Of a stretch of 12,223 nucleotides of DNA, positions 3,155 to 10,569 are shown in pieces. Every line of letters begins with the position of its first letter. Positions within the stretch are counted from its first letter, which is position 1. This stretch comes from Candidatus Poribacteria bacterium (GTDB taxonomy: Bacteria; Poribacteria; WGA-4E; B28-G17). The stretch spans positions 1 through 12,223 of the forward strand of contig QNBQ01000016.1 in assembly GCA_003645735.1 (NCBI GenBank), read 5' to 3'. The position numbers and the translations under genes are program-made. The notes below the pieces were generated by a model, which worked only from the letters and a program-made list of their open reading frames with translations, did no database searches and had not been told where the DNA came from.

Positions 3155-3682
3155 ATGAGAGGTAAGGCTTTGTTCGGAGTTTTATCCCTTTTGCTGGTCG
3201 CCTCGCTGCTGACCCTGATGGTCAACGCCCAGGTGAGGGAGCGGGTCAGGCCCCCTCAACCGCCGCCGGGTCAAGGGGTCCCGCCTGAGGAGAGGTTCAA
3301 GAGGGCCTTTGAAAGGGCGCTCGACAGGCTGAAGCTGACGGAGGATCAGAAGAAGGCCGTCATGGAGCTTGTGAACGCCAAGCTGGAGGCGAGCCGAAAG
3401 GCGAGGGAGGAGGTCAGGGAGCTGAGGAGGCTGGCCAGGGACAGGAGCGCCCCCGAGGAGGAGCTGAGGAAGGCGCTGATGGAGTTCAGGAAGAGGAGGC
3501 TCCAGGAGAGGAAGAGGATCCTCGACATGGAGGAGAAGCTGATCGAGGGCCTGCCGGCCAGAGCCGCCCTTCAGCTGACGGTGATAGGGGTTTTGGAGAA
3601 CGGCCTGCCCTTCCCGCCTCAGCTCGGCGGGCCGCTCCGGAGACTACGGTTCCAGCGCGAAAGGCAAAGGCCCGGAAGGTGA
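3155..3682 (+). CDS. Small secreted Spy/CpxP-like helical protein
   Basis: This 175-residue protein starts at ATG 3155 with GGAGGG 6 bases upstream. Residues 1-25 form a signal peptide (MRGK, hydrophobic core, cleavage near VNA-Q), so it should be periplasmic. A proline-rich segment (32-44) follows, then about 90 residues of highly charged Arg/Glu/Lys helix. That helix contains an LTEDQ motif (61-65), which matches the LTxxQ signature of Spy/CpxP-like periplasmic chaperones and metal-stress sensors. A less charged segment ALQLTVIGVLENG (138-150) and a basic tail complete it. The relation to Spy/CpxP is by motif and helical pattern only; length and proline-rich segments differ from the E. coli proteins. 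The function is probably envelope-stress or chaperone-like, but this is inference. It is the last gene of the plus-strand group and is followed by a hairpin. Confidence 0.65.
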   Translation: MRGKALFGVLSLLLVASLLTLMVNAQVRERVRPPQPPPGQGVPPEERFKRAFERALDRLKLTEDQKKAVMELVNAKLEASRKAREEVRELRRLARDRSAPEEELRKALMEFRKRRLQERKRILDMEEKLIEGLPARAALQLTVIGVLENGLPFPPQLGGPLRRLRFQRERQRPGR

Positions 3683-8577: not shown

Positions 8578-9327
8578 TCATCCCTTCTTCAGCGATCCCC
8601 AGGTGACAGCCAGCTTATCCCCCGGCCACACCGCCATCTCGTTCGATCTCACCTGATAGTTCTGTTTGATCTCCTCGGGGGTCAAAACCCGGTTGTAAAG
8701 CCTAACCTCGTCCACCATGCCGTGCAGCCATCTGCCGTCGTGTTCGCTTCCGACCCGCCTCTCGTTCATGTTCTCGGGGGTCGAGCCGGCGGCCCCCTGG
8801 TCGACGAGCTCTCCGTTCACGTAAAGCTTCAGCTCGTTCTTCTTCGTATCGGTGGTGTAAGCGATGTGATACCACTTCTTCTCCTCACAATCGAACCTGA
8901 TTTTAACGCCGTCGTTCTTGTGCACCTGTATCTGGCGGCTTTCGAACTTGAAGTGAACTTTACCGGGCGCCCACTGCCACGTGGAGACGATCCCCTGGTA
9001 AGTTGGGGCCAGGGTCTCGGCATATGCCCAGCATTCAACCGTCACCTGCTCCCAATCCCCCAGAGGGGGTATCTCGACGTAGCAGTTCGCCTTCCCCTCG
9101 AAAAGCAGGCATTCATCTATGACCCCCTTCACTATCTTCAGCTCCCCCACGATCTTCGCGTCGTTCCCGTTTCCGGACATGTCCTTCACCACGTTGCCGT
9201 CGATGTCGCTTTCATCGAAGGTGTAAAACGCCACAAGGCCGTCCGTGACGAAGCCTTGGGCCTCCGCCGCTCCGAAGGGCCATGAGAGGCTGATCATCAC
9301 CAAAGCCGGGATTAAACCCCTTCCCAT
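8578..9327 (-). CDS. Secreted LamG-domain (concanavalin A-like) protein with C-terminal WG motif
   Basis: This 249-residue protein starts at ATG 9327, with GGGAGGTG 5 bases upstream. An ATG five codons earlier is less well placed because the ribosome site lies after it. Residues 1-23 are a signal peptide ending near AEA-Q. One LamG/concanavalin A-like domain fills about 28-222. It shows LVAFYTFDES, the DMSGNGNDA loop (49-57), VTVECWAYAE (95-104), WYHIAYTTD (152-160), ELKLYVNGELV (165-175) and MVDEVRLYNRVLTPEEI (204-220). Such domains usually bind glycans or proteins on the cell surface. After a short linker it ends in VWPGDKLAVTWGSLKKG (233-249), nearly the same layout as the end of the divergent secreted protein at 9492-10325. 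It is driven by a perfect consensus promoter, so strong expression is expected. The glycan target is unknown. Confidence 0.88.
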   Translation of the reverse strand: MGRGLIPALVMISLSWPFGAAEAQGFVTDGLVAFYTFDESDIDGNVVKDMSGNGNDAKIVGELKIVKGVIDECLLFEGKANCYVEIPPLGDWEQVTVECWAYAETLAPTYQGIVSTWQWAPGKVHFKFESRQIQVHKNDGVKIRFDCEEKKWYHIAYTTDTKKNELKLYVNGELVDQGAAGSTPENMNERRVGSEHDGRWLHGMVDEVRLYNRVLTPEEIKQNYQVRSNEMAVWPGDKLAVTWGSLKKG

Positions 9328-9375
9328 GTTTACACCTCCCAACCCATTCCCCCCTGGTCTGCGTCGTCAATGCCA

Positions 9376-9404
9376 ATTATATTCCTTCCCACAGATCGTG
9401 TCAA
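9376..9404 (-). promoter_or_regulatory. Perfect-consensus sigma70 promoter for the LamG gene
   Basis: On the minus strand, TTGACA (9404-9399), a 17-base spacer and TATAAT (9381-9376): all 12 hexamer bases match and the spacing is optimal. The expected start near 9369 gives a leader of about 42 bases with the GGGAGGTG ribosome site. Confidence 0.9.
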
Positions 9405-9423
9405 CTTCAGCGGTTCCCGCGGG

Positions 9424-9452
9424 TTGAAATCGGACTTTTGGGATGGTAACAT
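9424..9452 (+). promoter_or_regulatory. Likely promoter for the ThuA/DUF4960-like gene
   Basis: -35 TTGAAA (9424-9429), 17-base spacer, -10 TAACAT (9447-9452, 4/6 match). The start near 9459 leaves a leader of about 33 bases containing AGGAGG (9477-9482), 9 bases before the ATG. Its -35 box lies 19 bases from the -35 box of the stronger divergent LamG promoter. Confidence 0.55.
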
Positions 9453-9491
9453 TTCACCGCGCTAAGCTTTGCCGTTAGGAGGGGAGCGATT

Positions 9492-10325
9492 ATGGCCAGC
9501 AGGGCTATAGCCATCATCATAGCGCTCATGGCCGCTCAGGCCCTGGTCTGTGAAGGGGGGACATTTAAGCTCGGCCTGTTGGCCGGCGGGAAAGAGCTGG
9601 GGGAGGTGGCGCAGGCGGCTTACGAGTGGGCCTCTCAAAACTACGACGCGTTGATAATCATCCCCGACGGGAAGGGCGGGTTCACCGACCTCAACGGCAG
9701 GCCCCACAAGCTGACCGAGTTCGCCGTCCTCTGGCTTCACTACTCCCAGACCAACTCGCTGCCAGCCCCGTTTTTGACGGATGAGACGAAGAAGGCCATA
9801 TTGGACTATCTTCAGGCAGGCGGGACGCTCTTCCTGACCGCGTTGGGCCTCCACTACACCTACGACCTGGGGCTTGTGGGCGTTAAGCCCAGGGTCTTCA
9901 GCCCCCTGGGCAAAAACCCTCCCGAGATAGGTGTCGTCCCGACCGATGAGGGCAAAAACCATCCCATCTTCGCCGGGTTCGACACCTCCAAGCCGATCTT
10001 CCTCTGCAGCATGGCCCAAGACGGCTTCACCTCCGATTTCATGAACGTCCCCAACATACCCGGCGAGATCCTGGCAACCAAAACGAGGGGAGGCGGGCCG
10101 GGCGCCGGCGAAAGGCCCCTTGTGGAGTTCGACGTCGGCAAGGGGAAGATCATCACGCTCGGGCATCACAACGCGGTATACACCGATGAAAAATCGGACG
10201 AGGCCCAAAACCTGAGGAAGCTGACCGCCAACATCATCGAATACCTCGCCTCGCATTCCGCCTTCTCGCCGGTCAAACCTGAGGGCAGGCTCCCCGCCGT
10301 CTGGGGGGCCGTCAAGCTTCGGTAG
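9492..10325 (+). CDS. Secreted ThuA/DUF4960-like (class I amidotransferase fold) protein with C-terminal WG motif
   Basis: This 277-residue protein starts at ATG 9492 behind AGGAGG. Residues 1-22 form a signal peptide (hydrophobic core AIAIIIALMAAQALV); a Cys at 20 is not in a proper lipobox. The body has the alternating strand/helix pattern of ThuA-like or DUF4960 proteins with a glutamine-amidotransferase-like fold. The relevant stretches are FAVLWLHYSQTN (77-88), the helix ETKKAILDYLQAGGTLFLTA (98-117), LGLHYTYDLGL, NHPIFAGFD (156-164), and GKGKIITLGHHNAVY (216-230). No catalytic Cys-His pair is obvious at the expected nucleophile elbow, so it may not be an amidotransferase. It ends in VKPEGRLPAVWGAVKLR (261-277), which matches the end of the LamG protein without gaps. 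Its last 14 bases overlap the 3' end of the opposing small gene. Role unknown; a secreted sugar-related function is a guess. Confidence 0.7.
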   Translation: MASRAIAIIIALMAAQALVCEGGTFKLGLLAGGKELGEVAQAAYEWASQNYDALIIIPDGKGGFTDLNGRPHKLTEFAVLWLHYSQTNSLPAPFLTDETKKAILDYLQAGGTLFLTALGLHYTYDLGLVGVKPRVFSPLGKNPPEIGVVPTDEGKNHPIFAGFDTSKPIFLCSMAQDGFTSDFMNVPNIPGEILATKTRGGGPGAGERPLVEFDVGKGKIITLGHHNAVYTDEKSDEAQNLRKLTANIIEYLASHSAFSPVKPEGRLPAVWGAVKLR

Positions 10326-10569
10326 GGATGCCCGGCCGGGGGAGGGGGATCAGATACCACTCCTCCTCCCCCAGATCCAGCCACAGCTCATAAACCCGGC
10401 CGTCGTCGCCTCTGACCCTGTAAACCGCGTAGAGCCTCCCGTCCTCCGCGTCCTGCCTCAGATACGAGGCCAGCACCTCCACCCCGATCTCCTTCCCCTC
10501 GAGGGCGAACGACCTCGGCTCCTGATCCGCCTTGTATCCGGAATAAGCCCTGACCTTGACGGGCCTCAC
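10312..10569 (-). CDS. Small conserved hypothetical protein, 85 aa
   Basis: The GTG start at 10569 overlaps the TGA stop of the TolC-like gene as GTGA, which points to translational coupling. It begins VRPVKVRAYSGYKADQEPRS and continues with short strand-like segments (GVEVLASYLR, LYAVYRVRGDDGRVYELWLD, EEWYLIPL). This looks like a small soluble beta-rich protein with no signal peptide, metal motif or DNA-binding helix. I recall similar short proteins beginning RPVKVxAYxGY in many bacteria, all without known function. The 3' end overlaps the convergent ThuA-like gene by 14 bases. The coupling and conserved look make it very likely real. Confidence 0.7.
   Translation of the reverse strand: MRPVKVRAYSGYKADQEPRSFALEGKEIGVEVLASYLRQDAEDGRLYAVYRVRGDDGRVYELWLDLGEEEWYLIPLPRPGIPTEA

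Follow-up and report, generated by a model that had tools for sequence, protein, structure and literature searches.

A near-identical 16-residue C-terminal tail on unrelated exported proteins of Poribacteria, apparently an undescribed address label

Short tail signals on exported proteins are known from the PEP-CTERM/exosortase, GlyGly-CTERM/rhombosortase and LPXTG/sortase systems. Signals of the sortase, exosortase, rhombosortase and MYXO-CTERM kinds have a hydrophobic stretch before a basic end and are served by a dedicated transpeptidase. This arrangement of hydrophobic stretch and basic end is described for GlyGly-CTERM in the cited passages of PMC6219818.

The passages of the type IX secretion literature cited here describe the classical type A domain as a seven-stranded beta-sandwich of about 100 residues, and report that in Bacteroidota different signal classes use different shuttles, PorV serving type A and PorP/SprF-like proteins type B (PMC12618676). 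The type B domain (TIGR04131), which has 150–235 residues and whose genes often lie beside shuttle genes, is together with its PorP/SprF shuttles a precedent for a second signal class with a shuttle of its own in one cell (cited passages of PMC12618676). Smaller signals have also been described: the short C-terminal domains (CTDs) of P. intermedia have 40–55 residues and are modelled to bind PorV (passages of PMC11969387), and the HBP35 signal was placed in the last 22 residues of that protein (passages of PMC11285876, PMC11969387). RgpB needs motif B, which lies outside its last 22 residues (PMC11969387, same passages). In the solved complexes, according to the passages cited, a folded domain buries approximately 1,850 square angstroms in SprA and PorV. 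Type A domains also have a Lys close to their end that hardly varies and that touches PorV, although the authors place the primary role of this residue elsewhere (PMC10994853).

For the phylum studied here, the cited passages of a 2014 study describe Poribacteria as dominant in marine sponges and report TIGR04183-like domains, but no type IX structural genes (PMC3909097), and those of a 2025 paper state that type IX secretion is exclusive to Bacteroidota (PMC12618676). In the excerpts of other literature that pairs Poribacteria with type IX secretion, Poribacteria are mentioned only among other sponge taxa in a list or within the titles of references. No earlier description of a poribacterial C-terminal tag was found among the papers listed by the literature searches, which lay mainly outside subscription journals and preprints.

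The stretch of DNA that we analyzed (the window, 12,223 nucleotides) contains two divergent genes whose products end in similar tails. The features of these genes are as follows.

8578–9327, minus strand: gene of the LamG protein, 249 aa (open reading frame, ATG at 9327; PF13385, E 1.6e-20)
9259–9327, minus strand: N-terminal signal peptide of the LamG protein, approximately 23 residues (hydrophobic-core rule; extent judged by eye)
8587–8634, minus strand: tail tag of the LamG protein, 16 core residues AVWPGDKLAVTWGSLK, then KG and the stop (score 38.9)
9492–10325, plus strand: gene of the DUF4960, ThuA-like protein, 277 aa (open reading frame; PF16324, E 1.8e-09; Foldseek 1t0b)
9492–9557, plus strand: N-terminal signal peptide of the DUF4960 protein, approximately 22 residues (hydrophobic-core rule; extent judged by eye)
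10269–10316, plus strand: tail tag of the DUF4960 protein, 16 core residues PVKPEGRLPAVWGAVK, then LR and the stop (score 34.5)

For the LamG gene we used the ATG at 9327; the list of open reading frames puts a TTG start at 9342. The C-terminal 17 residues of the LamG protein are VWPGDKLAVTWGSLKKG (codons 8631–8581, minus strand; stop at 8580–8578) and those of the DUF4960 protein are VKPEGRLPAVWGAVKLR (codons 10272–10322, plus strand; stop at 10323–10325). These data confirmed the report in an earlier note on this DNA that the two tails are in frame and exactly C-terminal and give an ungapped alignment in which six residues (V, P, L, W, G, and K) are identical, and the Pfam matches given above bore out its statement that the bodies of the proteins are unrelated. 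Its label of the divergent protein as ThuA-like was also appropriate, as the top structural match of the AlphaFold2 model of the DUF4960 protein in Foldseek was 8aa2_G, which belongs to a levan-utilisation complex (E 9.9e-10), and the next was the ThuA-like structure 1t0b (E 4.7e-08). Two further reading frames of the window were recorded. An 85-aa frame on the opposite strand (10312–10569), without a Pfam match, overlaps the last codons of the DUF4960 gene, including the tag. At 3155–3682, between der and a YdjC-like gene, there is a 175-aa protein with a signal-like start and without the tag, which has a weak match to Metal_resist, below the cut-off.

The consensus of the tag is [AP]-V-[EDS]-P-x-[GD]-K-L-A-T-T-W-G-x-[IL]-K, mostly followed by 2–4 residues, with one copy in each of the two window proteins. 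In the 2.64 Mb of the genome to which the window belongs (G000), a DNA pattern for W-G-x-[ILVM]-K had 68 matches versus 19 for the reversed pattern, and a stricter tag pattern had 31 versus 0. A protein set was obtained from 60 contigs of this genome (498 kb), comprising the window, 48 contigs with a pattern match and 11 large contigs without one, on which a simple codon-based caller identified 485 genes, 444 of them with a stop. The earlier note had proposed a search of the predicted proteins, and a position matrix found the tag in 45 of the 444 stop-bounded proteins, a count that does not represent the genome frequency because 48 of the 60 contigs had been chosen for a match. The scores of these proteins were 15.4–44.2 and that of the next protein was 2.8; the null from shuffled tails was 0.05 per set, and no internal copy was present before the last 40 residues in any of the 444 proteins. 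The matrix had been fitted on the same proteins that it scored. Two results are free of both contig selection and matrix fitting, namely the 31 versus 0 matches of the stricter pattern and the use of the unchanged matrix on G083, a genome from another family of the same class. In 733.6 kb of G083 the unchanged matrix identified 27 proteins scoring at or above 11.6, the next one scoring 4.1, and in 400 kb of G083 picked by coordinate alone 12 of 345 genes were tagged.

A pooled set contained 206 tagged genes among 1829, which is not a frequency, as 128 of the tags came from public loci selected by the tag pattern and 45 from the match-enriched contigs of G000. In the first half of the 206 tags the consensus residues were V in 185, P in 137, K in 177, L in 188, A in 130, and T in 155 and 158; in the second half they were W in 205, G in 183 (A in 21), I or L in 186, and the last K in 205. 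Two to four residues lay beyond the last core Lys in 163 of the tags, Arg being the commonest residue there. Since the codons at the conserved residues vary synonymously, selection acts on the peptide, and the signal is one at the protein level. A DNA or RNA element was rejected on the same grounds.

The carriers of the tag have unrelated folds. Pfam searches of 43 of the 45 tagged G000 proteins produced matches to LamG_3 (12 proteins), PD40 propellers (five), sortilin/BNR (three), CBM9 (two), 3-keto-disaccharide hydrolase (two), metallo-beta-lactamase (one), and DUF4960 (one). Among the 25 of 51 NCBIfam families listed for these 43 proteins there was no sorting-signal family, TIGR04183 included. 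By a simple hydrophobic-core rule, 174 of 196 tagged proteins had a signal-peptide-like start versus 431 of 1438 untagged proteins (Fisher 4e-58), with 5'-cut proteins, and untagged proteins without a stop, left out of the counts. The corresponding numbers were 38/42 versus 113/376 in G000, 24/27 versus 165/562 in G083, 108/121 versus 108/333 in the public loci, and 4/6 versus 45/167 in the surroundings of SprA genes. Several of the 22 tagged proteins without a signal-like start resemble proteins whose starts were called late. Lipobox-like starts were found in two of the 196.

The in-frame DNA pattern of the tag occurred in all of 84 Poribacteria genomes, with 18–160 matches each versus 0–7 for the reversed pattern. 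An out-of-frame version matched 1–3 times in each of 21 of these genomes, some of the matches being true tags in another frame. Matches in 99 genomes of another phylum were at background (58 genomes matched, with 0–6 each versus 0–6 for the reversed pattern). When the strict pattern was run on 84,980 species, each represented by a single genome, at least 115 stretches were found; among the 80 loci listed, 79 were titled Poribacteria and one Deltaproteobacteria (G084, a member of the phylum of the 99 genomes). The G084 assembly had two pattern matches versus six reversed. Its contig (L105) codes for the tag at 2600–2700, but in a frame that differs from that of the immediately preceding open frame, and no protein predicted on this contig matched proteins of the analyzed set. 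This stretch may represent a misbinned contig, transfer or a frame error.

Conservation of the tag was also seen among the homologues of the two window proteins. For the LamG protein 353 homologues were found, and the 120 listed all have the tag at their end; for the DUF4960 protein 146 were found, and 119 of the 120 listed have it there. The few homologues that name an organism are mostly from Poribacteria, with two named just "bacterium". In the lone exception among the DUF4960 homologues listed (P0002), approximately 33 more residues come after a tag-like stretch. Across the 120 listed homologues of each protein, the tag was about as conserved as the body (0.72 versus 0.78 for one protein and 0.84 versus 0.82 for the other), with lower values for the signal peptide (0.40 and 0.57) and the residues after the tag (0.35 and 0.46). 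In the AlphaFold2 model of the LamG protein, the block means over residues 231–249 were 53 and 47, versus approximately 97 across most of the body, and pLDDT was below 50 at residues 234–239 and 245–249; in that of the DUF4960 protein it was below 50 at residues 262–277. In these models the tag apparently is disordered behind a complete and confident domain in both unrelated proteins. AlphaFold2 draws a short low-confidence helix at the tag in both. We do not claim an amphipathic helix, as the hydrophobic moment at 100 degrees (0.38) was reached by 12.5% of column shuffles.

Based on these statistics and this distribution, we are nearly certain that Poribacteria truly use the tail as a C-terminal tag for the sorting of Sec-exported proteins. 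Nearly the same over its 16 residues on many unrelated exported proteins, it is apparently an undescribed address label, by which an outer-membrane export machine most likely recognises its proteins. The earlier note had read the tail as a short sorting, anchoring or processing tag, and this reading is supported, as none of the three outcomes that it had named against it appeared: the pattern was not rare, it was not shared to the same extent by cytoplasmic proteins, as judged from signal-like starts, and it was not part of a fold common to the carriers, the tag being disordered in both models. As a one-line rule, the tag picks out much of what Poribacteria export, probably to the cell surface, including many LamG and propeller proteins.

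No machine that might read the tag is visible in the window, as the earlier note had said, and the candidates (SprA, the PorV family and peptidase C25) were found elsewhere in the genome or in its relatives. The SprA loci are as follows.

G000, contig C95 (L210, 773–6715): SprA locus, matched by TIGR04189
G022 (L211, 4892–11404): SprA locus, matched by TIGR04189; 81 further genomes also match

The SprA family TIGR04189 was matched at E <= 0.001 in 83 of the 84 Poribacteria genomes, in 55 of the 55 best ones, and in none of 14 controls. These matches were mostly to one open reading frame of approximately 1900–2300 aa and reached the curated cut-off in one of the 84 genomes; four whole SprA proteins scored 143–183 bits versus a cut-off of 200. 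SprA_N (PF14349) was matched in 78 of the 84 genomes, 30 of them over the cut-off. No solved SprA structure was found by a sequence search. The PorV family was over its cut-off in all 84 genomes, with 8–24 matches each, and had a weak match below the cut-off in one of the 14 controls. PorV-family loci in G079, G083, G022 and G000 (L256–L265 and L293–L312) fall into several conserved paralogue groups per genome, several of which are common to G079, G083 and G022 and in part to G000.

Peptidase C25 was matched at the family level in 83 of the 84 genomes and in none of the 14 controls; G000, which is 76.6% complete, had no match. In G083 a C25 protein of 2082 residues ends in a classical domain, and a PorV-family gene lies 84 bases downstream; PorU of P. 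gingivalis bears a C-terminal domain too (passages of PMC11285876). In G022 the C25 and PorV matches are approximately 3.3 kb apart. TIGR04183 domains were present in all 84 genomes (9 to at least 60 each; 20 in G000) and in two of the 14 controls. The motor part GldM (PF12081) had weak matches in two of the 84 genomes, none over the cut-off. Judged from these sequence matches, a divergent SprA, PorV-family barrels and C25 form a putative type IX core in Poribacteria, without a recognisable GldM. Such a core is thereby indicated in a phylum in which the cited passages of the 2014 study report no structural genes (PMC3909097).

The type A domain (TIGR04183) resembles the tag in several respects: it is the C-terminal part of many unrelated proteins that start with a Sec signal peptide, lacks a membrane helix and has a conserved Lys near its end; in addition, the core of its machine occurs in the same genomes. 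In contrast, the tag has approximately 16–20 residues centred on Trp-Gly, no predicted fold and no TIGR04183 match. Our own HMM of the classical domain, which was built from few seeds and misses many, identified 19 domain-bearing proteins among the 1829 genes (four of them in the G000 contigs), and none of the 206 tagged proteins was among them. A folded beta-sandwich end was absent from both window proteins, whose models have the low-pLDDT tail instead. We found no sequence similarity of the tag to the classical domain, a lack of likeness that was counted against a type IX reading. The tag as the last strand of the classical domain was rejected, there being no convincing tail match by eye. 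Nor were close homologues found in which one of the two signals replaced the other; the bodies of tagged and domain-bearing proteins were similar at the domain level only (26–40% over 85–170 residues). The tagged proteins of G083 have 194–355 aa (median 260, n = 27) versus 57–2114 aa for its classical-domain proteins (median 1195, n = 12; the shortest of them, with 57 residues, is at a stretch edge), so the tag looks like a counterpart of the domain for small proteins. The short CTDs of P. intermedia are like the tag in being a reduced signal beside long ones in one proteome, but have three strands and keep motifs B, D and E (passages of PMC11969387), none of which the tag recognisably keeps by eye.

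No clear clustering of tagged genes around PorV or C25 genes was found. In G083, 15 of 278 genes were tagged in 333.6 kb near PorV or C25 genes versus 12 of 345 in the 400 kb picked by coordinate, and 18 of 417 genes were tagged in 30 PorV regions of four genomes. Four-gene tagged clusters adjoin one PorV copy in G079 and G083, which belong to the same genus; beside the counterpart of this copy in G022 and on a short G000 contig, such a cluster was absent. Tagged genes therefore differ from type B genes, as they have no comparable linkage to the genes of the PorV family. The co-occurrence of tag and SprA does not discriminate, because both are present throughout the phylum.

We consider there to be an even chance that small proteins carry the tag as a second type IX-like signal of minimal size. 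In favour of this are the SprA, PorV-family and C25 matches in the same genomes, the split between small tagged and large domain-bearing proteins, and the precedents of HBP35, the short P. intermedia signals, the separate shuttles of different signal classes and the Lys that contacts PorV. In this type IX reading, a Sec signal peptide would take the protein across the inner membrane, folding would occur in the periplasm, and the outer-membrane SprA translocon or one PorV-family barrel would bind the free, unstructured tail and carry the protein out. The nearly invariant Trp, Gly and Lys of the tag would be the contact residues. After export, the tail may be either cut off, C25 peptidases being present, or used as an anchor. 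The tag would form a further minimal signal class for small proteins, with large proteins keeping the classical folded C-terminal domain. If SprA or PorV does read the tag, the type IX signals described in the cited papers are much larger than this one, and the minimal recognition unit would become testable with a peptide.

Several points weigh against this link: the motif B of RgpB, recognition of a folded domain, the role of the Lys, the lack of likeness to the classical domain, of PorV linkage and of GldM, and the uninformative co-occurrence. On the same side stand the single genome in which SprA reaches its curated cut-off, the failure of a sequence search to find a solved SprA, the lack of a C25 match in the incomplete G000, and the merely domain-level similarity of tagged and domain-bearing bodies. 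Because of these points we put the type IX reading no higher, and regard as a credible, though less probable, alternative that the reader is a dedicated machine or receptor specific to Poribacteria and unrelated to type IX, such as a scaffold in the periplasm or at the surface, to which the tail would dock so that the carriers are assembled or anchored on the envelope. There may, with the same lesser probability, be a separate outer-envelope export or anchoring system in Poribacteria only, standing beside type IX and having its own reader of the unfolded 16-residue tail. Consistent with such a machine are the lack of a known sorting signal among the NCBIfam families listed, the restriction of the loci listed to Poribacteria in 79 of 80 cases with background in the 99 genomes of the other phylum, the tagged genes being without clear linkage to PorV or C25 genes, and the separate coexistence of type A domain cargo. 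Against it, no candidate machine was found, and a search for a family that co-varies with the tag was impossible because the tag is in every Poribacteria genome searched.

The other explanations are far less probable than either of these. The tight distance between the last core Lys and the protein end is what a stability or quality-control tail might have, its free end being recognised by a periplasmic protease or chaperone, but the tag is kept by 239 of the 240 homologues listed, which in our judgement speaks for a signal of destination rather than a degron, and we think this explanation very unlikely. A membrane-inserted processing signal of the sortase, exosortase, rhombosortase or MYXO-CTERM kind, with the tail held in the membrane and cut and the protein then attached, shares with the tag the C-terminal position, Sec-exported carriers and a short basic end (Arg being the commonest residue after the tag). 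The signals of the PEP-CTERM, sortase and rhombosortase systems have a hydrophobic stretch, however, and the 206 tags have none, polar residues being spread along their whole length, making this explanation a little less likely still. Peptides that load cargo into shells are likewise short tails, behind a flexible linker, and the short linear tag with its low-confidence helix in both models is of this form. Their cargo is cytosolic, whereas most tag carriers have signal-like starts and several of the 22 others are probably late-called, and loading into a shell, microcompartment or encapsulin is accordingly lower again in our estimation. Finally, chance or part of a domain fold common to both window families has a negligible probability, being refuted by the matrix statistics, the 84 of 84 genomes, the split between tagged and other proteins in G083 and the disordered AlphaFold2 tails.

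Adjoining pairs of tagged genes exceeded chance, with 11 versus 3.6 expected in G000 and five versus 1.1 expected in G083, as expected of duplicated or co-regulated genes. On one G000 contig (C15; L036, 343–5244), four tagged proteins of 312–350 aa are encoded on one strand within less than 5 kb, and two of their tails are very similar.
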